64,000 nucleotides of DNA from Streptomyces sp. NBC_01210 (GTDB taxonomy: Bacteria; Actinomycetota; Actinomycetes; Streptomycetales; Streptomycetaceae): NCBI RefSeq assembly GCF_036010325.1, contig NZ_CP108549.1:3410001-3474000 (forward strand), given 5' to 3'. The notes beneath the pieces were generated by a model. That model was not told the DNA's origin, made no database searches, and saw nothing but the letters and a program-made list of their open reading frames with translations. A program made the position numbers and the translations under genes. This document shows positions 27,427-61,094 of the stretch, one piece after another; positions within the stretch are counted from its first letter, which is position 1; each line of letters starts with the position of its first letter.

Positions 27427-28302
27427 CTAGCGGAACGCAGCCGGTGGCGGTACGGGTGAGGGCTTGGCGCTGGCGTCGGTGACCGCGGCCGCGCCGCCCG
27501 TGAAGTCGGCGAGTGCCCTTCCGTGTTCGACCCGGCCGGGGTGCGGGTCGCTCGCGACGCGGCGGGTCAGTTCGGCGACCGGCAGCGGTACGTCCGAGGC
27601 GAGGAGCACGGCGTTGCCGAAGCGGCGGCCGCGCAGCACGGTCGGGTCCGCGGCGAGCGCGAGTTCGGGGAAGACGGTGGCGGCGGTGGCGACCTGGGCT
27701 CGGACATGGGCGAGCGGCGGACCGTCGGCGAGGTTCGCTGTGTAGTGTCCGCCCGGCTTCAGGGCCCTTCGCACCTCGGTGAGGAACTCCGTACTGGTCA
27801 GATGCGCGGGTGTGCGGGCGCCGCTGAAGACATCGGCGATGACCAGGTCCGCCCAGCCGTCCGGGATCTTGCCGAGGCCCTCGCGGGCGTCGCCGGACCG
27901 GACGCGTATGCGCGCAGTGGGGTCCAACGGGAGCTGTTTGCGGACCAGTTGGACCAGCCCGGCGTCCAACTCGACGATCTGCTGGGTGGATCGGGGGCGG
28001 GTGGCGGCGATGTAGCGGGCGAGCGTGAAGGCTCCGCCACCGAGGTGGACGACCTGGAGGGGGCGGCCGGGCGGGGCGACGAGGTCGACGATGTGGCCGA
28101 GGCGGCGCTGGTACTCGAAAGAGAGATACGCGGGGTCGTCGAGGTCGACATGGGACTGCGGCGCACCGTCGAGGAGCAGCGTCCAGGCGCGGGGGCGCTC
28201 GCGGTCGGGTATCAGCTCGGCCAGCCCGCCGTCCACCTGCTCGACGACGGGTTCGGGGCTGCCGCCCCCGCCCGTACGGCCGCGCCGTTTACTTTTTGCC
28301 AT
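27427..28302 (-). CDS. spermidine-synthase-like methyltransferase-fold protein
   Basis: A 291-aa protein. After a short basic N-terminus, the Rossmann fold shows VHLGGGAFTLARYIAAT (SAM/decarboxy-SAM loop), IVELDAGLVQLVRKQLPL, VRSGDAREGLG and DLVIADVFSGARTPAHLT. This matches the polyamine aminopropyltransferase superfamily; actinobacterial members often lack the Asp needed for putrescine binding, and the substrate here is unknown. ATG 28302 was chosen over longer starts, which lie in repeat DNA. A 17-bp repeat array precedes it. Confidence 0.8.
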   Translation of the reverse strand: MAKSKRRGRTGGGGSPEPVVEQVDGGLAELIPDRERPRAWTLLLDGAPQSHVDLDDPAYLSFEYQRRLGHIVDLVAPPGRPLQVVHLGGGAFTLARYIAATRPRSTQQIVELDAGLVQLVRKQLPLDPTARIRVRSGDAREGLGKIPDGWADLVIADVFSGARTPAHLTSTEFLTEVRRALKPGGHYTANLADGPPLAHVRAQVATAATVFPELALAADPTVLRGRRFGNAVLLASDVPLPVAELTRRVASDPHPGRVEHGRALADFTGGAAAVTDASAKPSPVPPPAAFR

Positions 28303-28358
28303 CAGCCCATTATCGGCACCGATCCGGGTGGGCTGCCCGCGCAGGGCCCGGCGGCCGG

Positions 28359-28466
28359 CACGGCTCAGCAGTGTGCACGGCTCAGCAGTGTGCACGATTC
28401 GGCGGCGTGCAGGGCTCGGCGCGGGCGCGGCTCGGCGGCTTGCGCGGCTCGGGGCTTGCACGGCTC
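28359..28466. repeat. 17-bp degenerate tandem repeats
   Basis: From 28359, two exact copies of CACGGCTCAGCAGTGTG are followed by about five drifting units (for example CACGATTCGGCGGCGTG). The array fills most of the gap between the gene at 28465 (ending) and the spermidine-synthase-like start at 28302. The units read like a slipped minisatellite. Confidence 0.8.
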
Positions 28467-28920
28467 AGCTGCAGTTGTCGGCGGCCTCGATGAGGCGGGC
28501 CGCCTCGCCGAGCGCCTTGCGCAGGACCGCGGGGTCGGTGACCGGGTCGGCGTCGTCCGGCGGCAGCAGCCAGCCGCTGCCGGTGACCGGCGGCTCGGCC
28601 GGGATGCGCAGACCGCGCCCCGACGTCTGCGTACAGGCACTGCCCGGCATGTCCCAGCCGTCTGCGGTGCCGGGCGGCACGAGGAAGCCGAGAGTGTCGC
28701 AGGCGCCGTCGTGGAGAACCGGGCCGACGGCCGGAGCGTCCGCCCGGCGCAGGATGTCCACCGCCTCAAGGCCCTGCCGGGCGGGGACGGTCACCAGGTC
28801 ACAGGGTTCGGCAGCGGCGCCGTCCCCGGGTGGTGCGCTGCTGTCCTGGGTGGGCGTGTGCCGAGCAGTCGTCGCCGTCGTCGCAGTCGTCCGTGGGGCG
28901 CCGTTGACGCTGTTCTCCAT
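28465..28920 (-). CDS. small prim-pol-domain-like protein
   Basis: A 151-aa cytoplasmic protein. After a Thr/Ala-rich N-terminus it contains CDLVTVPARQGLEAVDIL, DTLGFLVPPGT, SGRGLRIPAE and SGWLLPPD. This series matches part of the bifunctional primase/polymerase-like fold, but it is only a fragment of that domain and no catalytic Asp pair is evident. It shares pattern with the protein at 37046. GGAGGTCGGC precedes the ATG. Divergent from the XRE-TPR regulator, so a paired regulatory role is possible. The start at 28920 is preferred to the longer frame. Confidence 0.6.
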   Translation of the reverse strand: MENSVNGAPRTTATTATTARHTPTQDSSAPPGDGAAAEPCDLVTVPARQGLEAVDILRRADAPAVGPVLHDGACDTLGFLVPPGTADGWDMPGSACTQTSGRGLRIPAEPPVTGSGWLLPPDDADPVTDPAVLRKALGEAARLIEAADNCS

Positions 28921-29160
28921 GCCGACCTCCAACAAGGGGATCCCCTCCTCGCTCGAGTGGAGACACGTAGCGGGTCTCCACATGGTTCAACGCCCGTTGG
29001 CGTCAATGGCTACGGCGGCACGCCGCCGCAAAGGATGGCAGTTCATGGCAGATCGAGGGGGACATATCCCTTTTGTAGGCAAACTCTGCGTGCGCGACCC
29101 GTCACAGCAGGTACGTTCTTGCTCCGCCGGAACACGGCTGCACCAAGAGAGGGCTCGGCC

Positions 29161-30558
29161 ATGGCGTCGTCGTCACAGGCATCACGGGCAGTTCCCAACC
29201 TCGCCTTCCGCGGACTGCGCGGGCAACGCTCGCCCGGAGAGTTCGCGGCGGCAGTACGCAAGGCCGCTCGGGAGATCGGTGAGCAGGTCTCCTGCGATGC
29301 CCGCTACATCGGGCGCGTCGAGGCCGGCGAGATCCGCTGTCCGAACTACGCGTACGAGCGGGTGTTCCTGCACATGTTCCCCGGTCTGACGCTGGCGGAT
29401 TTGGGCTTCACGGCGCGGGAACAAGTACGGGGCGGCCGGGGCCTGCCGCTCGTGCCGGCTCATCCCTTATGCCCCTTCGACGGCAACAGTGACAGCGACA
29501 TCGACGAGGAGAGCGACGTGCTGCGTCGCGCATTCATGACGAGCGGCTCCGCCACCGTGGCGGCCGCGTCCCTCGGGCTCGGACTCGGGCCCGTACCCGG
29601 CAGGCCCGGTTCCACGCCCGGCCTCTCCAGCACCGTGCCCGCTCAGCGGCGAGTCGGCGAGGCGGAGGTGAGCGCCGTCGAAGAGGCGGTACGGCGGATC
29701 CGGCTGCTCGACGACCAGCACGGCGCGGACGGGCTCTACCAGCGGGCCGCGCAGCCGCTGAGGGCCGCGTACGCGCTGCTCGACGCGGGGACGACGGCCC
29801 GCGCCTCGACCGCCGGCCGACTGCACGCCGGAGCGGGCGAACTCGCCATCTCGGTGGGCTGGTTGGCCCATGACTCGGGCCGCTTCGACGACGCCCGCTC
29901 GCACTACGCGGAGGCGCTGGCGACGGCGCGGGTCGCGGGCGACCCGGCGCTGGAGGCACACGCCTTCTGCAATACGTCGTTCCTGGCGCGGGACGCGGGG
30001 CGGTACCGCGAGGCGGTGCGCTCGGCGCAGGCCGGGCAGCGCGCCGCGCGGCAGCTGGCCTCGCCACGACTGCTCTCGCTGCTCTCACTCCGGGAGGCGG
30101 GCGGCTGGGCGGGGCTCGGCGACCGCGCGAGCTGCGAACAGTCGCTGTCGCGAGCGCACTCGTACTTCGACCTGGGCGTCACAGACGCGGACCCGGAGTG
30201 GATGTCGTTCTTCGGGGAGCCGGAGCTGGAGGCGCTCCAGGCACAGTGCTGGGCGGCACTCGGCGAATGGTCGCGAGCGGCCCGCCACGCCCGCCGGGCG
30301 GCGGCGCTCCAGGACCGCCGCTTCACGCGCAACCTGGCGCTGTACCGGGCCGAACTGGCGGCGGACCTGGCGCGGGCGGGCGCACCGGACGAGGCGGCGG
30401 AGGCGGGCCACCAGGTGCTGGACCTGCTGGACCGGGTCCAGTCCTCGCGCATCCAGTCGATGCTGTCGGACACGGCGAGGGTGCTGCTGCCGCAGCGGCG
30501 GGCGGCAGGGGTGGGGGCGTTCCTGGACCGCCACACGGAGACACTCCGCGAGGCATAG
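29161..30558 (+). CDS. XRE-family TPR regulator with TTA codon
   Basis: A 465-aa protein. The N-terminal helix-turn-helix (SPGEFAAAVRKAAREIGEQV, then RYIGRVEAGEIRCPNYAYER) is followed by a linker and then a long alpha-helical TPR-type region to the end (GWLAHDSGRFDDARSHYAEA, NTSFLARDAGRYREAVRSAQ, HARRAAALQDRRFTRNLALY). An internal LRRAFMTSGSATVAAASLG motif, at about residue 121, is typical for this Streptomyces class. Codon 103 is TTA, implying bldA dependence. Divergent from the prim-pol-like gene. Probably a peptide- or protein-sensing regulator linked to development. Confidence 0.85.
   Translation: MASSSQASRAVPNLAFRGLRGQRSPGEFAAAVRKAAREIGEQVSCDARYIGRVEAGEIRCPNYAYERVFLHMFPGLTLADLGFTAREQVRGGRGLPLVPAHPLCPFDGNSDSDIDEESDVLRRAFMTSGSATVAAASLGLGLGPVPGRPGSTPGLSSTVPAQRRVGEAEVSAVEEAVRRIRLLDDQHGADGLYQRAAQPLRAAYALLDAGTTARASTAGRLHAGAGELAISVGWLAHDSGRFDDARSHYAEALATARVAGDPALEAHAFCNTSFLARDAGRYREAVRSAQAGQRAARQLASPRLLSLLSLREAGGWAGLGDRASCEQSLSRAHSYFDLGVTDADPEWMSFFGEPELEALQAQCWAALGEWSRAARHARRAAALQDRRFTRNLALYRAELAADLARAGAPDEAAEAGHQVLDLLDRVQSSRIQSMLSDTARVLLPQRRAAGVGAFLDRHTETLREA
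29467..29469 (+). promoter_or_regulatory. TTA codon in the XRE-TPR regulator
   Basis: In frame, CAT-CCC-TTA-TGC (His-Pro-Leu-Cys, codons 101-104) lies just after the DNA-binding domain. This is a second candidate bldA control point in the window. Confidence 0.9.
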
Positions 30559-31387: not shown

Positions 31388-32263
31388 ATGCCGCACACCG
31401 CGCCCCGTCATCGGCCACGCTGGTGGACCGAACTGATGCTCATCGTCGTGGTCTACGCCGCGTACTCGGCCGGCCGGCTGCTCGCGCGCGGCAATGAGTC
31501 GGCCGCGGTCGACCACGGCATGGCGATACTCCGGGCCGAGAAGGCACTCCTCCTCAACGCCGAGCACCCGCTCAACCGCCTCTTCACCAGCACCCCGGCC
31601 CTCGGCGTTCCCGCCGACTTCGCCTATGCGTCCCTGCACTATCTGGTCACTCCGGCCATTCTGGTCTGGCTCTTCCGCCGCCGCCCCGCCCGCTACCGGG
31701 CCGCCCGCACCTGGCTGATGCTCTCCACGCTCCTCGGCCTCGTCGGGTTCACGCTGCTGCCGACCTGCCCCCCGCGGCTGCTGGACGCCGGCCAGGGCTT
31801 CGTCGACACGATGGCCCAGTACAGCTCGTACGGCTGGTGGGGCGGCGAAGCGAGTGCGCCGCGCGGCATGGGCGGGATGACCAACCAGTACGCGGCGATG
31901 CCGAGCCTGCACGTGGGCTGGGCCCTGTGGTGCGGTGTGATGCTGTGGCGGCACGGCCGTACGCCCCTGATGAAGGTCCTCGGCGTCGCCTACCCGCTGC
32001 TCACCACGTTCGTGGTGATGGGGACGGCGAACCACTACTTCCTGGACGCGGTCGCGGGCTGCGCAGTGATGGGCGCCGGCGCGCTGCTGACCAGGCCCGC
32101 GCTGCGCATCGCCGACCGGGTGCGTACGCGCTTCACCGCCCCTTCCGGCTCGAAGTCCCCGATTGTCAGTGCCGGATGCGAGACTTCCGCGGGTGAGCGA
32201 ATCCCTGGACAGCGGACCTCCTCCGCAGGCGCCGACGACAGCACTCCGGCAACGGCTCGCTGA
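31388..32263 (+). CDS. PAP2-superfamily integral membrane phosphatase/transferase
   Basis: A 291-aa membrane protein with about six helices (LMLIVVVYAAYSAGRLL, LHYLVTPAILVWLF, MLSTLLGLVGFTLLP). The active-site segments are AAMPSLHVGWALWCGV (SLH motif) and ANHYFLDAVAGCAVM (final His/Asp). Such proteins are the Aur1/Ipt1-like PAP2 branch acting on lipid-linked phosphates, for example inositol phospholipids in actinobacteria. ATG 31388 has GGAG 8 nt upstream. Its 3' end overlaps the nuclease gene by about 70 bp. Confidence 0.85.
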   Translation: MPHTAPRHRPRWWTELMLIVVVYAAYSAGRLLARGNESAAVDHGMAILRAEKALLLNAEHPLNRLFTSTPALGVPADFAYASLHYLVTPAILVWLFRRRPARYRAARTWLMLSTLLGLVGFTLLPTCPPRLLDAGQGFVDTMAQYSSYGWWGGEASAPRGMGGMTNQYAAMPSLHVGWALWCGVMLWRHGRTPLMKVLGVAYPLLTTFVVMGTANHYFLDAVAGCAVMGAGALLTRPALRIADRVRTRFTAPSGSKSPIVSAGCETSAGERIPGQRTSSAGADDSTPATAR

Positions 32264-33314
32264 GCTGCGCGGCCCCGCCGCGCAGCCGCATCCGCTCGAC
32301 GCCCGCGCGCTGGCCGCCCTCGCCGCCAACCCCGGCTGCGAACGGCGCGCGCTGCTGGACGGCGCCGGGGTGAACAAGGCGGCGCTCGCCTCCGCGCTGG
32401 GGTCGCCGGCCGCGTTCGGGCAGTCGCAGTTCGCTTTCATGCGCGGCAACGCCTTCGAGGCGAAGGTCAAGGCCGACGGCGGTACGGAACTGATGCGGCT
32501 GCTGGGCGTGGACGCACCGGCACAGGTCCGGGTGCCCGATCTGACGGCGGCCGGTCCCGAGGGCCGCGCGGCGCGTACGGCACTGGCGCTGCGCGAGGCC
32601 ACCGGCGCCGGCGAGTGGACGCTGCTCGACCACCCGATGCTGGCACTGCAGGTCGCGGGCTCCCCCGCCTATCTGGAGCCGGACGCGGTGGTCGTGCACC
32701 CCGACGGACGGTGGACGGTCGTCGAGATCAAGTCCTTCCCGATGATCGACGGCTCGGCGGACGCGGCGAAGGTCGGCGCGGCGGCGCGTCAGTCCGCGGT
32801 GTACGTACTGGCCCTGGAGCGGGTCGCCGCGCTGACGGACGGCGCGCAGGTCGCGCACAGCATCCTGCTGGTCTGCCCGAAGGACTTCTCGAACCTGCCG
32901 ACCGCGTCCGTCGTCGACGTACGCAAGCAGCTCTCGGTGACCCGCCGCCAGCTGGCCCGGCTGACCCGGATCGAGGACATCGCCGCCGCGCTTCCCGAGG
33001 GCACCACCTTCGACCTGGAGCGCCCGGCCGGTGAACTGACCGCGGCGGTCGAGTCGGTGTCCGCGGCATACGCTCCCGAGTGCCTGGCCGCCTGCGAGCT
33101 GGCCTTCCACTGCCGCGACCGGGCCCGCGACGCGGGCGTGGTGGAGGCGCTGGGGCGCGGGGTGCGCGGCGAGCTGGGCGGACTGACGACGATCGGCGAG
33201 GTGCTGGCGGCGGCACGGAGCGAAGCAGGTGATCCGGACGACCCGGCGGTCGTGGCCCTGCGCCGTGCCGCCGCGCTGCGGGCCGAGGCCCTGGAGGCGG
33301 CCGGATGTCGCTGA
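32193..33314 (+). CDS. RecB/Cas4-like PD-(D/E)XK nuclease with candidate Fe-S cysteines
   Basis: A 373-aa protein. Visible nuclease signature: RGNAFE (84-89), Asp164 in LEPDAVVVH, Glu178-x-Lys180 in VVEIKSF, and the RecB-type QxxxY at Gln200-Tyr204 (RQSAVYVLAL). Cysteines at 49 (GCERRALLD) and 297, 301, 307 (CLAACELAFHC) are spaced like the Fe-S cluster of Dna2, AddB and Cas4. First gene of a three-gene operon (overlapping next gene by 10 bp). GTG 32193 is chosen; a TTG 10 codons earlier is possible. The upstream gene overlaps it. Function inferred: single-stranded DNA nuclease partner of the downstream helicase. Confidence 0.75.
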   Translation: MSESLDSGPPPQAPTTALRQRLAELRGPAAQPHPLDARALAALAANPGCERRALLDGAGVNKAALASALGSPAAFGQSQFAFMRGNAFEAKVKADGGTELMRLLGVDAPAQVRVPDLTAAGPEGRAARTALALREATGAGEWTLLDHPMLALQVAGSPAYLEPDAVVVHPDGRWTVVEIKSFPMIDGSADAAKVGAAARQSAVYVLALERVAALTDGAQVAHSILLVCPKDFSNLPTASVVDVRKQLSVTRRQLARLTRIEDIAAALPEGTTFDLERPAGELTAAVESVSAAYAPECLAACELAFHCRDRARDAGVVEALGRGVRGELGGLTTIGEVLAAARSEAGDPDDPAVVALRRAAALRAEALEAAGCR

Positions 33315-34891
33315 TCTCCACCCTCGCCCGGCTGGAGGCCGTCGAGTCGGGACGGGCCACCCCGCTCGCAACCGTGCGGCACCGGCATCTCTCCGAACGT
33401 CCGCTGGTCCTCGTACCGCTGACGACAGCCGGTGAGGCGGGCGCGCCGCTGGGCGCGCTGGTCGGCACGGACGAGGAGGAGCCGCGGCTGCTGGTCGTGG
33501 CGCAGCCCCGCGACCGCGATCTGCGCTTCACCTTCCTCGCCGAGCTCGCCGACGCGGTACTGCCGCATCTGGACGCGTACGCCGACGATGTCGAGCCCGC
33601 CGAACGCAACGAGACCGACCCGGAGACCGGCAAGAGGGTCAAGGTCGAGGTCGAACTGTGCGCGGACGCACCGCAGTTGATCGTGCCGGGCCGGGCGGGC
33701 ATCGACTTCGTGCGGCTGCTGGGCCGCTCGATGCGCTTCCGGCGTACGGCCGAGCAGGACCCCGACGCGCCCTACCCCGCGCCGCCACACGTCCCGCTGC
33801 TCGGCCGCTGGCTGACGCACTACGGCGAGCGGGCCCGGGTGCCCGGCTCCTCGCTGCTGCTCGCGGCGACCGATCTGCTGAACCGGCACTGGGCGACCGG
33901 CCAGTCGAGCCTGGAGGCCCAACACCTGGGCGCGCTGCTCGCCTGGATCGACCCGCCCGAGAGCGAGACGGGCGCCGAGGCGGCGCTGCGGGCGGAGCTG
34001 GCGCGTGATGCCCGCGGCCAGCTGCTGTGCCCGCCCGCAGGACCGGCCACCGACCCGGCCTTCGACAACCGGCTGCTGGCCCCCGCCGTGGAGCGGTACG
34101 ACCGGGCGCGCCAGGCGCTCGGCACTGCTGAGGACGGCGCCGAGGCGGATGCCCGGCTGGGTGAACTGACCCTCGCCGAGCGGGAGATCCGCCGCCTCCT
34201 GCTGACCCAGCTCAAGCCCACATGGCACGCGGTGTGGCGCGGCCTCGAGCTGCTGCGGGAGCTGCCGGAGGGGCCGCGGGCGGCGGACCGCTGGACGCGC
34301 GACCGCTGGTCGTTCACGGCGCACCGCGATCGCGTACGGGCCGGGGAGCCGCCGCAGCCCCGGCGCGACGACGCGGTGACGGCCGCGCAGAAACTCGCCT
34401 CCCGCGAGACGGCACAGGCGCAGCTGGAGGCCCAGGAGGCGCTGGACGACCCGCTGGTGCTGGCGGGGCGCCGGCTGGCGGGCGAGGCGTTCACGAGTGA
34501 GGTGACCGAGGTCGTGATGGCCTGGTCCGAGTCGAAGCGGCCGAGCCCGCGCCCTCTGCTGACCGTCCGTACGGACGACCGCCCGCATCTGGGCGAGCGG
34601 GTGAAGGTGTACCGCTCGCTGGACGGCAAGCCGCAGACCGCTGAGTTCGTACGGTACGAGGCCGAGGGAGTTCTGGTGCTGCGGCTGACCGACCGCATGG
34701 GCCGGTCCAAGGACCCTGCGGAAGGCTCCGTACCGGAAAAGGGCGAGCGGATCGCGTGGACCCTGTTCGAGCACGACCAGCGGGGCGGCCCGAAGCTGCC
34801 GGACCCGGAGGAAACCCCATGGACCCACGGCGGCCCTCCGGGCACGGACGCGGAGAGCCCGGACCCCGTGACCCCGGAGGACATTCTGTGA
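33305..34891 (+). CDS. 528-aa protein of unknown function, between nuclease and helicase
   Basis: No complete family recognised. The N-terminal half (about 1-230) is mixed alpha/beta with acidic stretches (LLVVAQPRDRDLRFTFLAEL, RKVEVELC-like). The middle is helical (ADARLGELTLAEREIRRLLL, LKPTWHAVWRGLELLRELPE). The C-terminal 130 residues have alternating beta character (RPLLTVRTDDRPHLGERV, TAEFVRYEAEGVLVLRLT, GERIAWTLFEHDQ) that resembles the beta-barrel before the helicase motor in Dna2/Upf1 enzymes. The ATG overlaps the nuclease gene; helicase starts 34 bp downstream. Inference: scaffold or DNA-binding adaptor of the complex. It may be the most novel part of this operon. Confidence 0.75.
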   Translation: MSLISTLARLEAVESGRATPLATVRHRHLSERPLVLVPLTTAGEAGAPLGALVGTDEEEPRLLVVAQPRDRDLRFTFLAELADAVLPHLDAYADDVEPAERNETDPETGKRVKVEVELCADAPQLIVPGRAGIDFVRLLGRSMRFRRTAEQDPDAPYPAPPHVPLLGRWLTHYGERARVPGSSLLLAATDLLNRHWATGQSSLEAQHLGALLAWIDPPESETGAEAALRAELARDARGQLLCPPAGPATDPAFDNRLLAPAVERYDRARQALGTAEDGAEADARLGELTLAEREIRRLLLTQLKPTWHAVWRGLELLRELPEGPRAADRWTRDRWSFTAHRDRVRAGEPPQPRRDDAVTAAQKLASRETAQAQLEAQEALDDPLVLAGRRLAGEAFTSEVTEVVMAWSESKRPSPRPLLTVRTDDRPHLGERVKVYRSLDGKPQTAEFVRYEAEGVLVLRLTDRMGRSKDPAEGSVPEKGERIAWTLFEHDQRGGPKLPDPEETPWTHGGPPGTDAESPDPVTPEDIL

Positions 34892-34925
34892 CGGCCATCT
34901 TTGCCGCGTCCGCCGGAGGTGCGCT

Positions 34926-36263
34926 GTGAGCGGGCGCGTCTTCGATCCCTCTGCCGAGGCCGCGCGGGCCACCGACGCGATCCTCGCCGACACGCTGCAC
35001 GGGACGCACCGCGGCGTCGTCGTGGACTCGCCGCCCGGCGCGGGCAAGTCGACGCTCGTCGTGCACGCCGCGCGTGAACTGGCGGCTGCCGGGCGGCCGT
35101 TGATGGTCGTCGCGCAGACCAATGCGCAGGTAGACGACCTGGTGGTCCGGCTCGCCGAGAAGGAGCCCGACCTGCCGGTAGGGCGGCTGCACAGCAACGA
35201 CGCCGACCCGTACGACAAGGCCCTCGACGAGCTCGACAACGTACGCAAGTCCGCGAAGGCCGGTGACCTGGCAGGCCTGGACATCGTCATCTCGACCGCC
35301 GCGAAGTGGGCGCATGTGCAGGGTGTGGAGCCCTGGCGGCACGCCATCGTCGACGAGGCGTACCAGATGCGTTCCGACGCACTGCTCGCCGTCGCCGGCC
35401 TCTTCGAACGGGCGCTGTTCGTCGGCGACCCCGGCCAGCTGGACCCGTTCTCGATCGTGGGCGCGGACCAGTGGGCCGGGCTGTCGTACGACCCGTCCGC
35501 AAGCGCGGTCTCGACGCTGCTCGCGCACAACCCGGAGCTTCCGCAGCACCGGCTGCCGGTCTCCTGGCGGCTCCCGGCGTCCGCCGCGCCACTGGTCTCG
35601 GACGCGTTCTACCCGTACACACCCTTCCGCAGCGGTACGGGCCCGGACGACCGGCGGCTGGCCTTCGGTGCGCCGTCGGACGGCTCGGGTCCTGACCGGG
35701 TGCTGGACGAGGCGGCGGAGTCGGGGTGGGGCCTGCTGGAGCTGCCCGCGCGCAGTACGCCTCGTACGGACCCCGAGGCGGTACGGGCCGTGGCTCAGGT
35801 GGTCCGCCGGCTGCTGGACCGCGGCGGCGCGGCGACCAGCGAGCGGTCCGCGGACCCGGTCCCGGTGACCGCCGAGCGGATCGCGGTCGGCACGGCCCAC
35901 CGCGACCAGGCGGCGGCGGTACGGGCGGCGCTGGCCGAGGTGGGCGTCACCGGCGTCACCGTGGACACGGCGAACCGTCTCCAGGGCCGCGAGTTCGACG
36001 TCACGGTGGTCCTCCACCCGCTGTCGGGCCGCCGTGACGCGACGGCGTTCCATCTGGAGACGGGCCGGCTGTGCGTACTGGCCTCCCGCCACCGGCACGC
36101 ATGCATCGTGGTGTGCCGCGCGGGCGTCACGGACCTGCTGGACGAGCACCCGTCGACGGAGCCGGTCCAGCTGGGCGTCGCGGTCAAGTTCCCGGATGGC
36201 TGGGAGGCGAACCACTCGGTGCTCGCTCACCTGGCGGAACACCGCGTGAGCTGGCAGCCGTGA
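34926..36263 (+). CDS. SF1 helicase (Upf1/Dna2-like)
   Basis: A 445-aa ATPase. Motif I: DSPPGAGKSTLVV (GAGKS 38-42); Ia: VVAQTNAQVDDLV; II: HAIVDEAYQM (DEAY 143-146); III: VGDPGQLDPF (166-175); IV: LPVSWRLP; V: DTANRLQGREFDVTVV; VI: CVLASRHRHACIVV. GDPxQL in motif III with a DEAx box places it in SF1 (Upf1/Dna2 branch), not SF2. Shorter than typical since the N-terminal accessory domain is separate. GTG 34926 has GGAGGTG upstream. Third gene of the operon. After the stop, a hairpin (about 36272-36288) and a decayed copy of the last 73 bp follow. Confidence 0.87.
   Translation: MSGRVFDPSAEAARATDAILADTLHGTHRGVVVDSPPGAGKSTLVVHAARELAAAGRPLMVVAQTNAQVDDLVVRLAEKEPDLPVGRLHSNDADPYDKALDELDNVRKSAKAGDLAGLDIVISTAAKWAHVQGVEPWRHAIVDEAYQMRSDALLAVAGLFERALFVGDPGQLDPFSIVGADQWAGLSYDPSASAVSTLLAHNPELPQHRLPVSWRLPASAAPLVSDAFYPYTPFRSGTGPDDRRLAFGAPSDGSGPDRVLDEAAESGWGLLELPARSTPRTDPEAVRAVAQVVRRLLDRGGAATSERSADPVPVTAERIAVGTAHRDQAAAVRAALAEVGVTGVTVDTANRLQGREFDVTVVLHPLSGRRDATAFHLETGRLCVLASRHRHACIVVCRAGVTDLLDEHPSTEPVQLGVAVKFPDGWEANHSVLAHLAEHRVSWQP
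36191..36263 (+). repeat. duplicated helicase 3' end, copy 1 (in the gene)
   Basis: The final codons of the helicase (PDGWEANHSVLAHLAEHRVS then WQP and the stop) recur 147 bp downstream at 36338-36410, as PDGREANHAVLSHLAEHRVS then RQP and a stop. The identity is high over 73 bp with scattered substitutions that mostly keep the protein reading. Confidence 0.88.
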
Positions 36264-36337
36264 GCACAGGCGCCGGACGGAGTCCGGCACGCCGCCCGAA
36301 GCCTGCGAAGCAGCGCGAGGGCGGCAGACAGCAACAG

Positions 36338-36410
36338 CCCGGATGGGCGGGAGGCGAACCATGCGGTGCTGTCCCACCTGGCGGAACACCGCGTGAGCCG
36401 GCAACCGTAG
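36338..36410 (+). pseudogene. vestigial second helicase C-terminus
   Basis: A 73-bp remnant homologous to the last 24 codons of the helicase gene, ending in TAG. It has no start or upstream helicase sequence, so it is the trace of a former tandem copy or a recombination junction. A degraded version of the CCGGACGGAGTCCGG hairpin seen after copy 1 occurs later as CCGGGCGGAGTCCGG. Confidence 0.85.
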
Positions 36411-36533
36411 ACGCCCTTGCGGAGAACGGGACAATGGACGGTGGCCACGGGCACCGGGCGGAGTCCGGTCAAGCGTGCGAGTCAACGAAAGGCGGCCGAT
36501 CAGGGGCCGCACCTGTACGAGGAGGAGAACCAC

Positions 36534-36872
36534 ATGGCGGATCCCGACCGGAGTGAGCGGAAGCTGCGACCGGCCCCGCTGCTCTTCGAGCCGTCGGAGG
36601 CTGCCGCCGATCCCGAGCACTTCTTCGACCTGGAGTCCATCGAGGACCCGAGGGAGCTGCTGGCCCGGGCCACGGAACTGACCCTGGCGTTCCGCGCCGC
36701 GACCGACCGGGCGGCGGAGTACCAGGCACTCGCGGCGGCCCAGCTCGCCGACCCGCGACGCTTCGACCGGCTCACCTCCGCGGACATCGCCCAGCGGGCG
36801 GAGTGGACCGAGGACTATGCCAAGAAGATGATCGAGTTCGGCCGCGACCTCCTCCGTAACACCACCCCGTAG
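36534..36872 (+). CDS. small acidic helical protein downstream of helicase
   Basis: A 112-aa, mostly helical protein (FDLESIEDPRELLARATELT, AFRATDRAAEYQALAAAQLA-like, WTEDYAKKMIEFGRDLLR). No motif or signal. It begins with a strong GAGGAGG ribosome binding site before ATG 36534. Function unknown. It lies 270 bp after the helicase with the remnant copy in between, so it may not belong to the same operon. Confidence 0.7.
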   Translation: MADPDRSERKLRPAPLLFEPSEAAADPEHFFDLESIEDPRELLARATELTLAFRAATDRAAEYQALAAAQLADPRRFDRLTSADIAQRAEWTEDYAKKMIEFGRDLLRNTTP

Positions 36873-37045: not shown

Positions 37046-37702
37046 ATGAGCGCATGGCTGCGAGACCAACCACTGCGGGACCCCGGCCCCCCTGACGACG
37101 AGCGCCGTACGGACATCCTCGCCCTCCTGCAGGAGGAGGGCCGTTATCGCGCGGCACAGGTCACCGCCCCCGGCGCCCGCTGGCTCACCTCCGCCGGGGC
37201 GTATCCGCGCTCGATGCTCGCCCTCTGGGAGACCCGGCCGACCGCTCCCGCCGTACTGCCCTGCGGCGCCGTCTTCGACGTCGTGAACGTGCCCACGGTC
37301 TTCGGCCGGCGGATGCTCGACCGGCTGTGGGAGGAGGGGCCGGGATCCGGCCCCGTCGCCATGCACCGCGGCCGGATGATGCTCTTCGCCGCGCCCGGCA
37401 CCGCCCAGCGCCTGCCGTCCCTGCTCGACTGGGAGGAGTGGGGCGATTCCGTACCGCCGATGCTCTGCCACGGCATCGGCGACGCGGTGACCGTCCCGCC
37501 ACTGGCGCAGGGCCAGGACGCCGCCGACCCGCGCTGGCTGGTGGCCCCGGACGCCCGCCATCCATGGCTGCCGGGGCCCGAGGTACTGCTCTGGTCGTGC
37601 GTGCGGGCGGTCCGTGCGGCCTCGTCCCCGACCGTGCGTATATCGATTTTTCCTCCCGCCGATCAGGATGCTAAGGTCTACGACGTCAGCAGGCGCCGCT
37701 AG
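37046..37702 (+). CDS. prim-pol-domain-like protein, 3' end overlaps tRNA-Lys
   Basis: A 218-aa protein with PCGAVFDVVNVPTVFGRRM, RLWEEGPGSGPVAMHRGRMM, FAAPGTAQRLPSLLDW and CHGIGDAVTVPPL. The order (N-terminal helical part, then FDVVNVP-type and GRMMLFAAPG-type segments) matches the bifunctional DNA primase/polymerase-like domain common in Streptomyces, without clear catalytic acid residues. The frame stops at TAG 37700-37702, inside the first bases of tRNA-Lys (10 bp overlap). Related in pattern to the protein at 28465. Confidence 0.65.
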   Translation: MSAWLRDQPLRDPGPPDDERRTDILALLQEEGRYRAAQVTAPGARWLTSAGAYPRSMLALWETRPTAPAVLPCGAVFDVVNVPTVFGRRMLDRLWEEGPGSGPVAMHRGRMMLFAAPGTAQRLPSLLDWEEWGDSVPPMLCHGIGDAVTVPPLAQGQDAADPRWLVAPDARHPWLPGPEVLLWSCVRAVRAASSPTVRISIFPPADQDAKVYDVSRRR

Positions 37703-37766
37703 CTCAGTTGGTTAGAGCAGCTGACTCTTAATCAGCGGGTCCGGGGTTCGAGTCCCTGGCGGCGCA
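37693..37766 (+). tRNA. tRNA-Lys (CTT anticodon), copy 1
   Basis: 74-nt cloverleaf: acceptor GCGCCGC/GCGGCGC, D-arm AGCTCAGTTGGTTAGAGC, anticodon CTT in GACTCTTAATC, T-arm CCGGGGTTCGAGTCCCTGG. Identical in sequence to copies at 53217 and 58646. A TAAGGT -10-like element lies at about 37672. Confidence 0.97.
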
Positions 37767-37774
37767 CAGACGGG

Positions 37775-39629: not shown

Positions 39630-41444
39630 GTGAGCGGAACCTCCGAAGGAACAGGGCCGGCCGGAGTCGCAGTCCCCGGTAGCAACCGGCCGTTGATCAC
39701 AGAGCGTCACAGCGTCGGCCGGACGGCCGCCGAACTGCGTGACTACCGCGCCGCGTTCAACGCCGCACACCTCGCGATGGCCGTCGTCGACCACGAGGGC
39801 GTCGTGGTCACTGCGAACGAGGCCTTTGCCGCGCTGCTCGGCACCGAGCCCGTCACCCTGCTGGAGCAGTCCGCGGCCGATCTCGTCGACCTGGCGTCGG
39901 ACGGCCGCACCTGGCACGCGTACCGCGAAGTGCTGCGCGGCCGCCGTTCCCGGTTCCGCTGCACGCGCCGCCTCAAGCACCCCGACGGGCGCACGCTCTG
40001 GGCCGAGGTCACCGTCGCGCCGGTGCCGGACAGCCGCAATGTGCTGCTCTCCATCACGGACATCAGTGACCGGCGCGAGCTGCTCGCGCGGCTGCGGCAG
40101 GTCCAGATGCACGACCCGGTGACGCGGCTGCCCAACCGCACGCTCTTCTTCGAGCGGCTCTCGGCGGCGCTGGAGTCATCGGCGTACGACCAGGGCTCCA
40201 CCGGCCGGATCGGGCTCTGCTACCTGGATCTGGACGGCTTCAAGGCGGTCAACGACACGCTCGGGCACCGGGTCGGCGACCGGCTGCTTGCCGCCGTCGC
40301 CACCCGGCTCACCGAGTGCGCGGACAGCGACGCCCACACACGCAGCGGCAGCCATCTGGTGGCGCGGCTCGGTGGCGACGAGTTCGCGATCCTGGTCGAG
40401 GACTCCACCGGTACGGAGCAGCTCGCCGATCTCGCCAGGTCCGTACTGGTCGCGCTGCAACAGCCGTTCGACCTGTCGGGACAGCGGCTCTCGGTCTCGG
40501 CGTCGATCGGGGTCGTGGAGCGGGCGGCGGCCGGGACGAGCGCGACGGGTCTGATGCAGGCCGCGGACACCACGCTGTACTGGGCGAAGGCGGACGGCAA
40601 GGCTCGCTGGACCCTTTTCGACCCCGAGCGCAACGCGCACCGGATGACAAGGCAGGCGCTCTCCTCCACACTCCGGCCGGCCGTGGAGCGCGGCGAGTTC
40701 GCGCTGGAGTACCAGCCGCTGGTGGGGATGGCGGACGGGGTGCCGCGGGGCGTGGAGGCGCTGGTGCGCTGGAACCACCCGCAGTTCGGCACCCTTGCGC
40801 CGAATCGGTTCATCGCCATCGCGGAGGAGGACGGCTCGATCGTCCAGCTCGGCCGGTGGGTGCTGCGTACGGCGTGCCGCCAGGCCCGCCAGTGGCAGAC
40901 GGACCACCCGGACGCCCTGCCGCTGTTCGTGAGCGTCAATGTCGCCGTACGGCAGGTCTGGGACTCCGACCTGGTCGCGGACGTGGCGGAGATCCTTGCC
41001 GAGACGGGTCTGGCGCCGCATCTGCTGCAGCTGGAGCTCACCGAGTCAGCGGTGATGGGCTCGGCGGGCCGCCCGCTCCAGGCGCTGCAGGCGCTGAGCG
41101 ACATGGGCGTGCAGATCGCGATCGACGACTTCGGGACCGGGTACTCGAACCTGGCGTATCTGAGCCGGCTGCCGGTATCCGTACTGAAGCTCGACGGATC
41201 GTTTGTTCGCGGCTTCCAGGACGAGGCGCACCCGAACCCGGCGGACGAGACGGTCGTCGAGGCGATGGTGCAACTGGCGCACCGGCTGGGCCTGACGGTC
41301 ACGGCGGAGTGCGTGGAGACGGCGGGCCAGGCGTCGCGTCTGCGGCGGATCGGGTGCGACACGGGTCAGGGCTGGCTGTACTCACGGGCGGTGGCGCCGG
41401 AGCGGATCGCGGAATTGATCGGTGTCGGCGCGCTGTCGGTCTGA
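39630..41444 (+). CDS. cdgA: CdgA-like PAS-GGDEF-EAL cyclic-di-GMP enzyme
   Basis: A 604-aa cytoplasmic protein with no transmembrane segment. A PAS domain is at about residues 35-150 (AVVDHEGVVVTANEAFAALL, SITDISDRRELLAR). The GGDEF is at 248-252 (RLGGDEFAILVED) and the EAL at 376-378 (GVEALVRWNHP), with the EAL core LELTESAVMG, DDFGTGYSN and KLDGSFVR. No RxxD inhibitory site is visible before GGDEF. Makes and/or breaks cyclic-di-GMP, which controls BldD and sporulation. GTG 39630 has GGGAGCG upstream. Confidence 0.93.
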   Translation: MSGTSEGTGPAGVAVPGSNRPLITERHSVGRTAAELRDYRAAFNAAHLAMAVVDHEGVVVTANEAFAALLGTEPVTLLEQSAADLVDLASDGRTWHAYREVLRGRRSRFRCTRRLKHPDGRTLWAEVTVAPVPDSRNVLLSITDISDRRELLARLRQVQMHDPVTRLPNRTLFFERLSAALESSAYDQGSTGRIGLCYLDLDGFKAVNDTLGHRVGDRLLAAVATRLTECADSDAHTRSGSHLVARLGGDEFAILVEDSTGTEQLADLARSVLVALQQPFDLSGQRLSVSASIGVVERAAAGTSATGLMQAADTTLYWAKADGKARWTLFDPERNAHRMTRQALSSTLRPAVERGEFALEYQPLVGMADGVPRGVEALVRWNHPQFGTLAPNRFIAIAEEDGSIVQLGRWVLRTACRQARQWQTDHPDALPLFVSVNVAVRQVWDSDLVADVAEILAETGLAPHLLQLELTESAVMGSAGRPLQALQALSDMGVQIAIDDFGTGYSNLAYLSRLPVSVLKLDGSFVRGFQDEAHPNPADETVVEAMVQLAHRLGLTVTAECVETAGQASRLRRIGCDTGQGWLYSRAVAPERIAELIGVGALSV

Positions 41445-53216: not shown

Positions 53217-53290
53217 GCGCCGCTAGCTCAGTTGGTTAGAGCAGCTGACTCTTAATCAGCGGGTCCGGGGTTCGAGTCCCTGGCGGCGCA
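53217..53290 (+). tRNA. tRNA-Lys (CTT anticodon), copy 2
   Basis: 74-nt gene identical in sequence to the copies at 37693 and 58646. A TAGTAT -10-like element lies near 53173. Different 5' flank from the other copies. Confidence 0.97.
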
Positions 53291-53298
53291 CAGCTGAT

Positions 53299-58645: not shown

Positions 58646-58719
58646 GCGCCGCTAGCTCAGTTGGTTAGAGCAGCTGACTCTTAATCAGCGGGTCCGGGGT
58701 TCGAGTCCCTGGCGGCGCA
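58646..58719 (+). tRNA. tRNA-Lys (CTT anticodon), copy 3
   Basis: 74-nt gene identical to copies 1 and 2; shares the GTCAGCAG 5' flank with copy 1. TAGAGT -10-like element at about 58625. Confidence 0.97.
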
Positions 58720-58729
58720 CGCAGAACTG

Positions 58730-59165: not shown

Positions 59166-61094
59166 ATGACGTCGACGCCAGACGGCGCCCGGCAGCCCAA
59201 CGACCCTTCCCGGACGACTCAGCTCCGGATACCGGCGCACCTGCGCACCGCCGGGCAGCGGCTGCGCCCCAAGAAGGCACTGCCGCGGTACGACTACGAG
59301 CACTACAGCAGGCTCGCCGGTCCCCTGACCCAGCCCGACCCGGCCAAGCCGTACACCGTGCAGTACCGCTCGCTGCTCTCGCAGGAGCCGCACCGTATCC
59401 GGGCCGCCCTGCTGCTCGGCGCCGCGCCGCTGGTCTCGCTGGGCCTGTTCGCCTGGCTGATGCAGCCCCAGCACTGGACCGAGCGCGACCCGAACCTCAA
59501 GAACGACACGCTGCTCATCCTCGACGTCGTCATGCTCGTCTCGATCGGTCTGATCGAGCTCTTCCGCACGCTGAACGTCCTGTCGAACGCGCACGCCACG
59601 CTGGTGGCCCGCGACCCGGTCCCCGTGGTGCCCGAGACCGGCACCAAGGTCGCCTTCCTCACCTCCTTCGTACCGGGCAAGGAGCCCCTGGAGATGGTGA
59701 CGAAGACGCTCGAGGCGGCCGTGCGGATCCGGCACCGCGGGCTGATGCACGTCTGGCTGCTCGACGAGGGCGACGACCCCGCCGTCAAGGAGGTCTGCGC
59801 GCGGCTCGGCGTCCACCACTTCTCCCGCAAGGGCGTTGCGCACTGGAACCAGGCCAAGGGACCGCACCGGGCCAAGACCAAGCACGGCAACTACAACGCC
59901 TGGCTCGAGGCGCACGGCGGCAACTACGACTTCTTCGCCTCCGTCGACACCGACCACATCCCGCTGCCCAACTACCTGGAGCGGATGCTCGGCTACTTCC
60001 GCGACCCGGACGTCGGCTTCGTCATCGGCCCGCAGGTGTACGGCAATTACGACACCTTCGTCACCAAGGCCGCCGAGTCGCAGCAGTTCCTCTTCCACGC
60101 CCTGATCCAACGCGCGGGCAACCGCTACGGCGCGCCCATGTTCGTCGGCACCTCCAACGCCGTACGCATCAAGGCGCTCAAGCAGATCGGCGGTCTGTAC
60201 GACTCGATCACCGAGGACATGGCGACCGGCTTCGAGATGCACCGCGCCAGCAACCCGGACACCGGGAACAAGTGGCGTTCGGTCTACACCCCGGACGTGC
60301 TGGCCGTCGGCGAGGGGCCCACGGCCTGGACCGACTTCTTCACCCAGCAGCTGCGCTGGTCGCGGGGCACATACGAAACGATCATGAAGCAGTACTGGAA
60401 GGGCTTCTACTCCCTGCCGCCGGGCAAGCTCTTCAACTACACGATGATGATCATCTTCTACCCGATGTCGGCCCTCAACTGGATCCTGGCGGCGCTGAGC
60501 TGTGCGCTGTTCCTGGGCATGGGCGCCTCCGGTGTGCAGATCGACCCGACGATCTGGATGATGCTGTACGGCAACGCCTCGGCGCTCCAGATCGGCCTCT
60601 ACATCTGGAACCGCCGCCACAATGTCTCACCGCACGAGCCCGAGGGCTCCGGCGGACTCGCGGGCATGGTGATGTCCGCGCTCTCCGCGCCGATCTACGC
60701 ACGCTCGTTGATGGACGCCGTACTGCGCCGCAAGAGCAAGTTCGTCGTGACCCCCAAGGGCGACTCGTCCAGCCCGGACACCCTCTTCGGCACGTTCCGG
60801 ATCCATCTCTTCTTCATCATCGTCTTCGGCGGATCGCTCGGCTTGTCCTTCTACTTCGGGCACGACCATCCGGCGATGATCACCTGGGCCACGCTGGCCC
60901 TGCTGATCACCGCGGCCCCCATCTTTGCCTGGCGGCACGGCATCCGCGAGGAGAAGAAGAAAAAGCGCAGAAGGCGGCACGGCGGCGGACAGCCGCCCGC
61001 CGCCACCTCGGAGGCCCATCTGCCGCAGCAGCGGCCGCAGCCTGCCATCACCGACCAGACCATGCAGATCGCCCTTGGGGGACGTAAGAAATGA
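59166..61094 (+). CDS. cslA: CslA, cellulose-synthase-like GT2 glycosyltransferase
   Basis: A 642-aa integral membrane GT2 enzyme. TM helices flank the catalytic domain (ALLLGAAPLVSLGLFAWLM, ILDVVMLVSIGLIELF; C-terminal YTMMIIFYPMSALNWILAAL and others). GT2 motifs: LLDEGDDPAVKEV, SVDTDHIPLPNYLERM (DxD-type), TSNAVRIKALKQIGG, SITEDMATGFEMH (TED), and QQLRWSRGTYE (QxxRW). It makes a beta-glucan at hyphal tips and acts with GlxA. ATG overlaps neither neighbour; stop overlaps glxA by 4 bp. Confidence 0.94.
   Translation: MTSTPDGARQPNDPSRTTQLRIPAHLRTAGQRLRPKKALPRYDYEHYSRLAGPLTQPDPAKPYTVQYRSLLSQEPHRIRAALLLGAAPLVSLGLFAWLMQPQHWTERDPNLKNDTLLILDVVMLVSIGLIELFRTLNVLSNAHATLVARDPVPVVPETGTKVAFLTSFVPGKEPLEMVTKTLEAAVRIRHRGLMHVWLLDEGDDPAVKEVCARLGVHHFSRKGVAHWNQAKGPHRAKTKHGNYNAWLEAHGGNYDFFASVDTDHIPLPNYLERMLGYFRDPDVGFVIGPQVYGNYDTFVTKAAESQQFLFHALIQRAGNRYGAPMFVGTSNAVRIKALKQIGGLYDSITEDMATGFEMHRASNPDTGNKWRSVYTPDVLAVGEGPTAWTDFFTQQLRWSRGTYETIMKQYWKGFYSLPPGKLFNYTMMIIFYPMSALNWILAALSCALFLGMGASGVQIDPTIWMMLYGNASALQIGLYIWNRRHNVSPHEPEGSGGLAGMVMSALSAPIYARSLMDAVLRRKSKFVVTPKGDSSSPDTLFGTFRIHLFFIIVFGGSLGLSFYFGHDHPAMITWATLALLITAAPIFAWRHGIREEKKKKRRRRHGGGQPPAATSEAHLPQQRPQPAITDQTMQIALGGRKK

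Follow-up and report, generated by a model that had tools for sequence, protein, structure and literature searches.

What do the three adjacent genes at 32193..36263 encode, and could they be a Dna2-type machine divided among separate subunits? They lie on the plus strand of the window (the whole 64,000-nucleotide stretch of Streptomyces sp. NBC_01210 DNA that was analysed) as three separate ORFs, for a nuclease (NUC), a protein of unrecognised family (MID) and an SF1 helicase (HEL), in that order. A sequence-only reading had described a tightly linked trio comprising a nuclease, a 528-aa protein and a helicase, and we confirmed this arrangement. NUC (32193..33314, +, 373 aa) and MID (33305..34891, +, 528 aa) overlap by 10 nt (33305..33314, +), as coupled genes do, and elsewhere a 4-nt overlap was found in 34 of 79 measured NUC/MID pairs; HEL (34926..36263, +) encodes 445 aa.

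The three proteins

The predicted fold of NUC matched Cas4 best, and also AddAB and AdnA. Iron-staple nucleases of the RecB family, as outlined in part of PMC7430649, combine RecB motifs with four conserved cysteines spanning the domain, and NUC has these features together with the RecB/Cas4 fold. Its conserved nuclease motifs are D164, E178-x-K180 and Q200-x3-Y204 (32682..32804, +). The presumed Fe-S cysteines are Cys49 (codon 32337..32339, +) and C297-x3-C301-x5-C307 (33081..33113, +), each present in 153 of the 154 loci, with a single deviation that reads X at Cys49 and is a gap, in L094, at the other three. Judging from these residues, NUC is an Fe-S-type PD-(D/E)XK nuclease of the RecB/Cas4 fold, as had been proposed, with an Fe-S cluster presumed from the cysteines. 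Two matches to engineered proteins (E 5e-8 and 9e-6), confined to residues 16-46, were dismissed as short repeat-like matches.

HEL corresponds to the 1A+2A core of an SF1 helicase. Its top Pfam models were AAA_11 (2.6e-12), AAA_12 (3.9e-9) and AAA_30, with UvrD_C_2 reaching only E 0.13, and profile comparison gave SMUBP-2 (7e-11) and DNA2 (1e-8) as best matches; UPF1 was matched too (2e-5). The Walker A lysine, Lys41 (35046..35048, +), was present in 140 of 140 sequences, and the residues of the motifs DEAxQ, GDxxQL and QGxE, which we take to be those of Upf1-like SF1B helicases, were kept in 137-140 of 140. The Upf1/Dna2-type assignment made from the sequence was thus borne out.

MID had been left unassigned, and our profile searches agreed: nothing significant was found against the PDB (ATP synthase c, E 0.088; ProQ, E 0.95), NucC rows appeared only at E 0.27-1.5, and weak Pfam matches to ProQ_C, TOBE_2 and MSSS each occurred in single MID relatives. 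In Upf1-like SF1B helicases a beta-barrel and a two-helix stalk precede domain 1A. Because the Walker A lysine of HEL is already residue 41, HEL lacks both, and MID is the candidate carrier; its C-terminal part (aa 385-500; 34457..34804, +) is, by inference, a candidate Dna2-type beta-barrel.

Conservation of the trio as a unit

Across 199 same-genus genomes, NUC was present in 186, MID in 187 and HEL in 187, with only 5 genomes discordant. Ten genomes were devoid of all three genes; 4 of these were well assembled, and absence carries little weight in the other six because their assemblies were in 480 or more contigs. The same four of 119 phylum genomes possessed MID, NUC and a strong HEL match. 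NUC lay upstream of MID in 60 of 60 loci and HEL downstream in 56 of 60, which supports the Dna2-like gene order put forward earlier. The named loci were the best 80 of 543, picked for a first sequence from outside Streptomyces; NUC preceded MID in 79 of them and the trio was complete in 67. In other families, all three genes were found in 91 of 107 distinct loci (111 including four seen twice, once unnamed and once named). In the two genomes with a displaced HEL that were checked, the helicase gene lay on the same strand at a distance of about 36 and 49 kb. The locus set took in 31 of 32 non-genus genomes with MID, leaving out G326, where the match was a fragment of 62 residues containing a stop, and 24 primary loci from 39 same-genus genomes; G532, G648 and G673, in which MID matched twice and HEL once, were read as split matches.

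Pairwise distances of NUC, MID and HEL correlated at 0.916-0.928, and the tree was built from the 137 rows common to the three alignments, with midpoint rooting only. Moreover, the 53 proteins related to a divergent MID included five NUC-MID fusions, which carry no HEL. NUC, MID and HEL are a true unit; the rare co-occurrence that would have spoken against the earlier proposal was not what the search across relatives revealed. In the Streptomyces records listed, the trio genes carried the annotation hypothetical protein, a possibility raised earlier, and no paper describing the trio was found by title or abstract start among the matches listed in the open-licence PMC literature.

The core copy in the window

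The trio in the window is the core copy of Streptomyces and has kept its location: it occupies one position in the genus, amid neighbours conserved across Streptomyces loci, and is accompanied by neither SbcCD nor the accessory gene G4 (see below). A PADLOC scan (E<=1e-10) of 44 of the 45 window gene calls recognised no defence system near it, only single mad3, mad8 and AriA matches, and a defence-island location for this copy was rejected. These gene calls were script-made and missed some genes (e.g. PAP2), and 27523-30555 was left unscanned as presumed antisense; a real gene probably lies within the 3' part of that interval. NUC and MID matched no PADLOC 2.0 family, and HEL gave only partial helicase-domain matches, the best being MkoA (1.1e-9) and MkoC (3.7e-9). 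A mobile-element or phage origin was likewise rejected, with no confirmed MID relative in IMG/VR and none, for core or accessory MID, in phage records.

Members of a GGDEF/EAL gene family were neighbours of the trio in 20 Streptomyces loci and in 14 others, nearly all of these from Micromonospora; we read this as a probable coincidence, the family being a common one. The neighbour-gene clustering comprised the 45 largest clusters only, missed many genes (NUC was called in 119 loci) and lumped all non-Streptomyces families.

Accessory copies beside SbcCD-like, Wadjet and pPIWI-RE genes

Same-genus genomes yielded 20 extra copies of the trio, all of them with a fourth gene, G4. Thirteen adjoined SbcD-like genes (12 also SbcC-like and 5 also Wadjet genes) and the remaining seven adjoined pPIWI-RE genes, and across different genomes the partners kept fixed, divergent layouts. 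A search for Wadjet genes around the trio loci located them beside eight, with Wadjet of two types after HEL. The separate SbcD-like metallophosphatase of the SbcCD-linked clusters is named SbcCD subunit D in RefSeq. The trio is not a constant part of pPIWI-RE, given that only 6 of 29 strong PprPDDEXK sites in the 199 genomes adjoined it. Two Streptomyces plasmids carry the trio, and G624 and G550 bear second copies at both chromosome ends, and in either genome one of the two was examined. Wadjet, and likewise Lamassu, is enriched at Streptomyces chromosome ends, according to part of PMC10482375, and co-residence in arm or plasmid islands could explain why accessory copies lie close to defence systems.

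The nuclease residues D164, E178 and K180 were together preserved in 143 of 155 rows: 26/26 core copies (window included), 13/13 SbcD-linked copies and 104 of the 109 remaining loci (100/105 once the four loci seen twice were removed). In the pPIWI-RE-linked copies the active site was broken in 7 out of 7, with the Fe-S cysteines retained; this loss gave a Fisher p of 2e-9, a value that ignores phylogeny, all seven being one clade.

Comparison with known systems

The trio resembles the eukaryotic Dna2, a Fe-S RecB-type nuclease with an Upf1-like SF1B helicase of ~450 residues in the parts of PMC4716839 and PMC7430649 that describe it, in its nuclease–middle–helicase order and in both enzymatic components. 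Bad of Geobacillus, in the published description (part of PMC7430649), is a single-chain bacterial DNA2-like enzyme made up of an iron-staple nuclease, an SF1B helicase and, between them, a domain of unknown family, and is alike in composition. Both, however, join nuclease and helicase in one polypeptide, whereas the trio has three chains. From Dna2 it differs further in that its barrel and stalk are only candidates, MID contains unrelated extra sequence and the cysteines are spaced otherwise (C-x3-C-x5-C in the window NUC versus C-x2-C in the fusions). AddAB and AdnAB share the pairing of a RecB-type nuclease with an SF1 helicase for end resection, but their helicases are UvrD-type while HEL is AAA_11/AAA_12. 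Cas4, the best fold match of NUC, differs in that NUC is linked to MID and HEL, with no Cas1/Cas2 link seen in the annotated flank parts. Five single-chain, nuclease-helicase-like actinobacterial proteins (L199-L203, 1131-1176 aa) have a HEL-like helicase at their C-terminus (hhalign E 7e-17) but no MID match and a non-significant NUC alignment (E 0.18); the idea that the trio is a split of such an enzyme was discarded for want of any detected MID similarity to the five.

The overall Dna2-type reading stood in part, as regards nuclease, helicase, gene order, co-occurrence and NUC-MID fusions; it had overlooked Bad, the core status of the window copy, and G4 and the defence neighbours of accessory copies.

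Discussion

We consider it probable that the trio is one three-subunit, Dna2/Bad-like helicase-nuclease for DNA-end processing that is also used as a defence module, on the basis of the predicted NUC fold, the preserved motifs, the steady linkage and shared absence of the genes, their co-divergence and the NUC-MID fusions. DNA-end processing in both repair and defence is the probable role because the products resemble an unwinding and cutting machine and the extra copies stand beside anti-plasmid and anti-phage systems. That the trio would be solely a chromosomal repair or replication enzyme, like Dna2 or AddAB, with accessory copies hitch-hiking in variable islands, seems unlikely: a core copy in ~94% of sampled same-genus genomes, its conserved neighbours and the lack of a recognised defence system among the 44 scanned proteins agree with it, but not the 20 of 20 second copies adjoining SbcD-like or pPIWI-RE genes in fixed layouts, nor the two Wadjet types after HEL. 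The reverse, a defence system against mobile DNA everywhere that was domesticated in Streptomyces, could draw on the plasmid copies and on L057, the most divergent lineage found, which already shows the layout SbcC-SbcD/G4-NUC-MID-HEL; we nevertheless judge it improbable, as the near-universal core copy sits in one place without G4 or SbcCD, and L057 lies on a very long branch of a tree rooted by midpoint only.

Lamassu, an SMC-type defence system, descends from Mre11-Rad50, and the SbcCD-linked clusters might be its relatives with the trio as effector module. The SbcC-like protein of L070 does match LmuB (69 bits, E 1e-19), and Lamassu shares with Wadjet the preference for chromosome ends, but many other SMC-type models match the same protein and the SbcD-like metallophosphatase is separate, so that we regard this as very improbable. 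An RNA-processing machine with an Upf1-like HEL is suggested by the UPF1 profile match and is hardly credible, SMUBP-2 and DNA2 being the better matches and NUC having a Cas4/RecB-type nuclease fold.

For the three-subunit end-processing enzyme, we infer complex formation, polarity and substrates as follows. HEL would be the ATP-driven motor, with the 5'-to-3' polarity of its family; NUC would be the iron-staple nuclease; and MID would join the two, probably adding a stalk/barrel and an extra domain. The assembly may unwind from an end or flap and cut the single strand. In Streptomyces, the core copy probably serves end processing in general, be it in repair, in restart or in breaking down linear foreign DNA, and the accessory version, with G4 added, would pair with SbcCD-like proteins and sometimes Wadjet for the destruction of invading DNA. 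In the clusters with pPIWI-RE, which has its own nuclease, NUC may have become a DNA-gripping scaffold. More tentatively, G4 and the trio may form a modular, previously unnamed DNA-destruction system of actinomycetes, an interchangeable processing engine coupled to SbcCD-like Mre11-Rad50, SbcCD plus Wadjet, or pPIWI-RE and degrading the ends that these recognisers create, with the nuclease inactive wherever the partner supplies one and the core copy domesticated; we hold this possible without leaning towards it.

Separable Dna2-type subunits, if true, would allow loading, unwinding and cutting to be tested one by one, and this in a genus whose chromosomes are linear. SbcCD is the bacterial Mre11-Rad50, and its repeated pairing with the trio mirrors eukaryotic end resection, and the trio's association with Wadjet and pPIWI-RE points to a possible fate for DNA after its recognition by those systems.

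Co-occurrence and linkage of the three genes

The predicted Fe-S nuclease (NUC), the 528-aa middle protein (MID) and the SF1 helicase (HEL) encoded at positions 32193-36263 (+) form one unit. The sequence-only reading was right in noticing that these genes are linked and, far from co-occurring rarely elsewhere, NUC, MID and HEL were present, at the thresholds used, in 186, 187 and 187 of 199 same-genus genomes, respectively, with all three missing in 10. Four of these trio-less genomes (G538, G616, G650 and G679) were assembled in 50-140 contigs; in six, the absence may be a mere gap, as their assemblies comprise at least 480 contigs. The five discordant genomes were G598, G607 and G646 (810-1420 contigs each), G503 (79% complete) and G512 (2 contigs, 93% complete), the last missing NUC with no evident fragmentation to account for it. 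In the class sample, MID was found in 71 of 394 genomes and 16 of 137 genera, including 39 of 40 same-genus genomes; the one exception, G343, was also devoid of HEL. Among 119 genomes of the phylum sample, NUC, MID and a strong HEL match (at least 537 bits) were confined to the same 4 genomes, 11 others giving only weak helicase matches (at most 37.1 bits).

Gene order was equally constant. NUC lay upstream of MID in all 60 fetched loci and HEL downstream in 56, the four misses being two loci at contig ends and two with HEL displaced on the same strand by about 36 kb (G204) and 49 kb (G305). In G305, a HEL fragment with a stop lies between NUC-MID and the displaced HEL. The trio was complete in 67 of the named loci (the best 80 of 543, including Streptosporangium, Nonomuraea, Actinomadura, Micromonospora, Frankia, Amycolatopsis, Nocardia, Dactylosporangium and others); 12, all from Micromonospora or Verrucosispora and one of them truncated by a contig end, showed no HEL nearby, and one, at a contig end, no NUC. 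The non-Streptomyces set that includes these 80 comprised 111 loci, 107 of them distinct once 4 duplicated named loci were discounted, and 91 of the 107 carried all three genes. With starts chosen by script, a 4-nt overlap between NUC and MID was seen in 34 of the 79 pairs measured, and MID and HEL overlapped in 42 of 68. Protein distances of NUC, MID and HEL correlated pairwise at 0.916-0.928 (137 rows), a value that shared phylogeny alone could suffice to produce.

A NUC domain preceded MID within one protein in 5 of the 53 relatives of a divergent MID, the one encoded in locus L057, whose sequence is identical to a protein of Frankia sp. AiPs1. These fusions (P0286, P0287, P0288, P0290 and P0291; 713-745 aa) are a physical link of NUC to MID, in the Dna2 order. 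Their nuclease motifs are degenerate in all five (in window NUC numbering, E178 changed to G or A, K180 to R, Q200 to E, and Y204 lost), with the four cysteines intact and spaced C-x2-C-x5-C. No HEL-containing fusion appeared among the 53 relatives, in a length-limited search that would overlook most such proteins.

The window copy is the core chromosomal locus

The genes around the window trio are shared with other Streptomyces loci: a histidine phosphatase gene adjoins the trio in 24 of 24 of these and a PAP2 gene in 15, and a small ORF without Pfam family (36441-36869) and a Prim-Pol-like ORF (37046-37699) are kept beside it in 22 and 19, respectively. None of these four was found beside the trio in other-family loci or in five second copies. 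The window trio is a core chromosomal locus. PADLOC recognised no defence system among 44 scanned window proteins. The best NCBIfam match of HEL was NF040671 PLuB_AAA (E 1.8e-17), and our literature search found no paper joining PLuB, helicase and phage. Downstream, a GGDEF/EAL gene (39630-41441) recurs in 20 of 24 Streptomyces loci and 14 other loci, nearly all Micromonospora; the family was seen near the trio in L039, L047, L151, L155-L159, L161, L163, L164, L167 and L173, and the Micromonospora-type loci carrying it have no HEL nearby.

Other features of the window were also recorded. The HEL 3' end is partly duplicated at 36333-36410 (25 residues, 76% identical, stop at the same point). 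Three tRNA-Lys (CTT) genes, identical over 75/75 bases (37693-37767, 53217-53291 and 58646-58720), are possible integration targets. A cellulose-synthase-like glycosyltransferase gene followed by one for a GlxA-type galactose-oxidase-like protein occupies 59166-63040.

A fourth gene and partner systems of the accessory copies

In trio copies other than the Streptomyces core ones, a gene encoding about 260-320 aa, here G4, lies upstream of NUC. It was present in 20 of 20 second copies versus 0 of 25 core copies, and in 72 of the 111 loci from other families (70 of the 107 distinct ones, including the best 80 of 543 named). G4 occurred in 22 of 394 class genomes, 20 sites adjoining the trio by coordinates; the other two were a fragment elsewhere (G378) and a gene with an internal stop in a genome without MID (G196). 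It gave no convincing match to any known family. Clustering of flanking genes returned G4, SbcC-like and SbcD-like as trio-adjacent families common to accessory and other-family loci; the remaining families crossing groups were GGDEF/EAL, one cluster of HEL-antisense ORFs and one small cluster.

The 20 second copies (five from the class sample, fifteen from multi-MID genomes of the genus sample) all had one of two neighbours. An SbcD-like metallophosphatase gene was divergent from G4 in 13, L177 having only a piece, and 12 of the 13 also had an SbcC-like ATPase gene. In the other 7, PprPDDEXK and PprDinG were divergent from G4, followed by PprPIWI in both loci scanned (557 and 563 bits); this set is the pPIWI-RE system of Burroughs et al. 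2013 (PMC3702460). Of the 29 strong PprPDDEXK sites detected across the 199 same-genus genomes, only 6 had a trio beside them. SbcCD-like genes also adjoin the trio in L057, L141, L147, L150 and L169.

Wadjet JetA-C lay downstream of HEL, on the same strand, in 5 of the 13 SbcD-linked second copies (in L069, after one helicase gene), on two Streptomyces plasmids and in L052, a locus from another family; these Wadjet genes belong to two types. Linear plasmid NZ_CP108489.1 (L198, 3343-19676) carries ten genes, SMC ATPase, SbcD, divergent G4, NUC, MID, HEL, JetA, JetB, JetC and JetD, and NZ_CP027023.1 has the same order with SbcCD in pieces. Since Wadjet and Lamassu are both reported to be enriched at Streptomyces ends (PMC10482375), location by itself could raise the proximity of second copies to defence systems; those of G590, G624, G550 and G457 lie about 25 kb or less from the end of contig 1.

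Nuclease residues are lost in particular contexts

D164, E178 and K180 were all intact in 26 of 26 core copies (window included), 13 of 13 SbcD-linked second copies and 104 of 109 other copies (100 of 105 distinct), and in 0 of 7 pPIWI-RE-linked copies. Five other-family copies (L054, L118, L130, L143 and L153) each carry at least one changed nuclease residue. Each Fe-S cysteine was kept in 153 of 154 NUC proteins, and HEL motif residues in 137-140 of 140. As the seven pPIWI-RE-linked copies fall into a single long-branched clade (137-row tree), their nuclease loss happened once or a few times, not seven. Residue loss both there and in the fusions suggests that the Fe-S domain may retain a structural or DNA-binding duty where cutting is not needed.

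A split-Dna2 model

The proposal of a Dna2-type machine split into subunits holds as the best available model and a working analogy, with a barrel in MID as a candidate only. It does not extend to membership: Dna2 is one chain, whereas the trio consists of separate genes and so lacks that single-chain feature. MID, which sequence profile searches did not place, is its weakest link. In the most likely mechanism, modelled on Dna2 and Bad, HEL would move along single-stranded DNA, starting at a 5' end or flap, while NUC, anchored by MID, would cut the strand; SbcCD-like partners may open or recognise ends, Wadjet may make them, and pPIWI-RE may bring another nuclease. New here are the scale of the linkage, G4, the recurring SbcCD-like, Wadjet and pPIWI-RE neighbours, and a loss of nuclease residues that depends on context. 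The core copy, with no fixed partner gene, probably serves general end processing.
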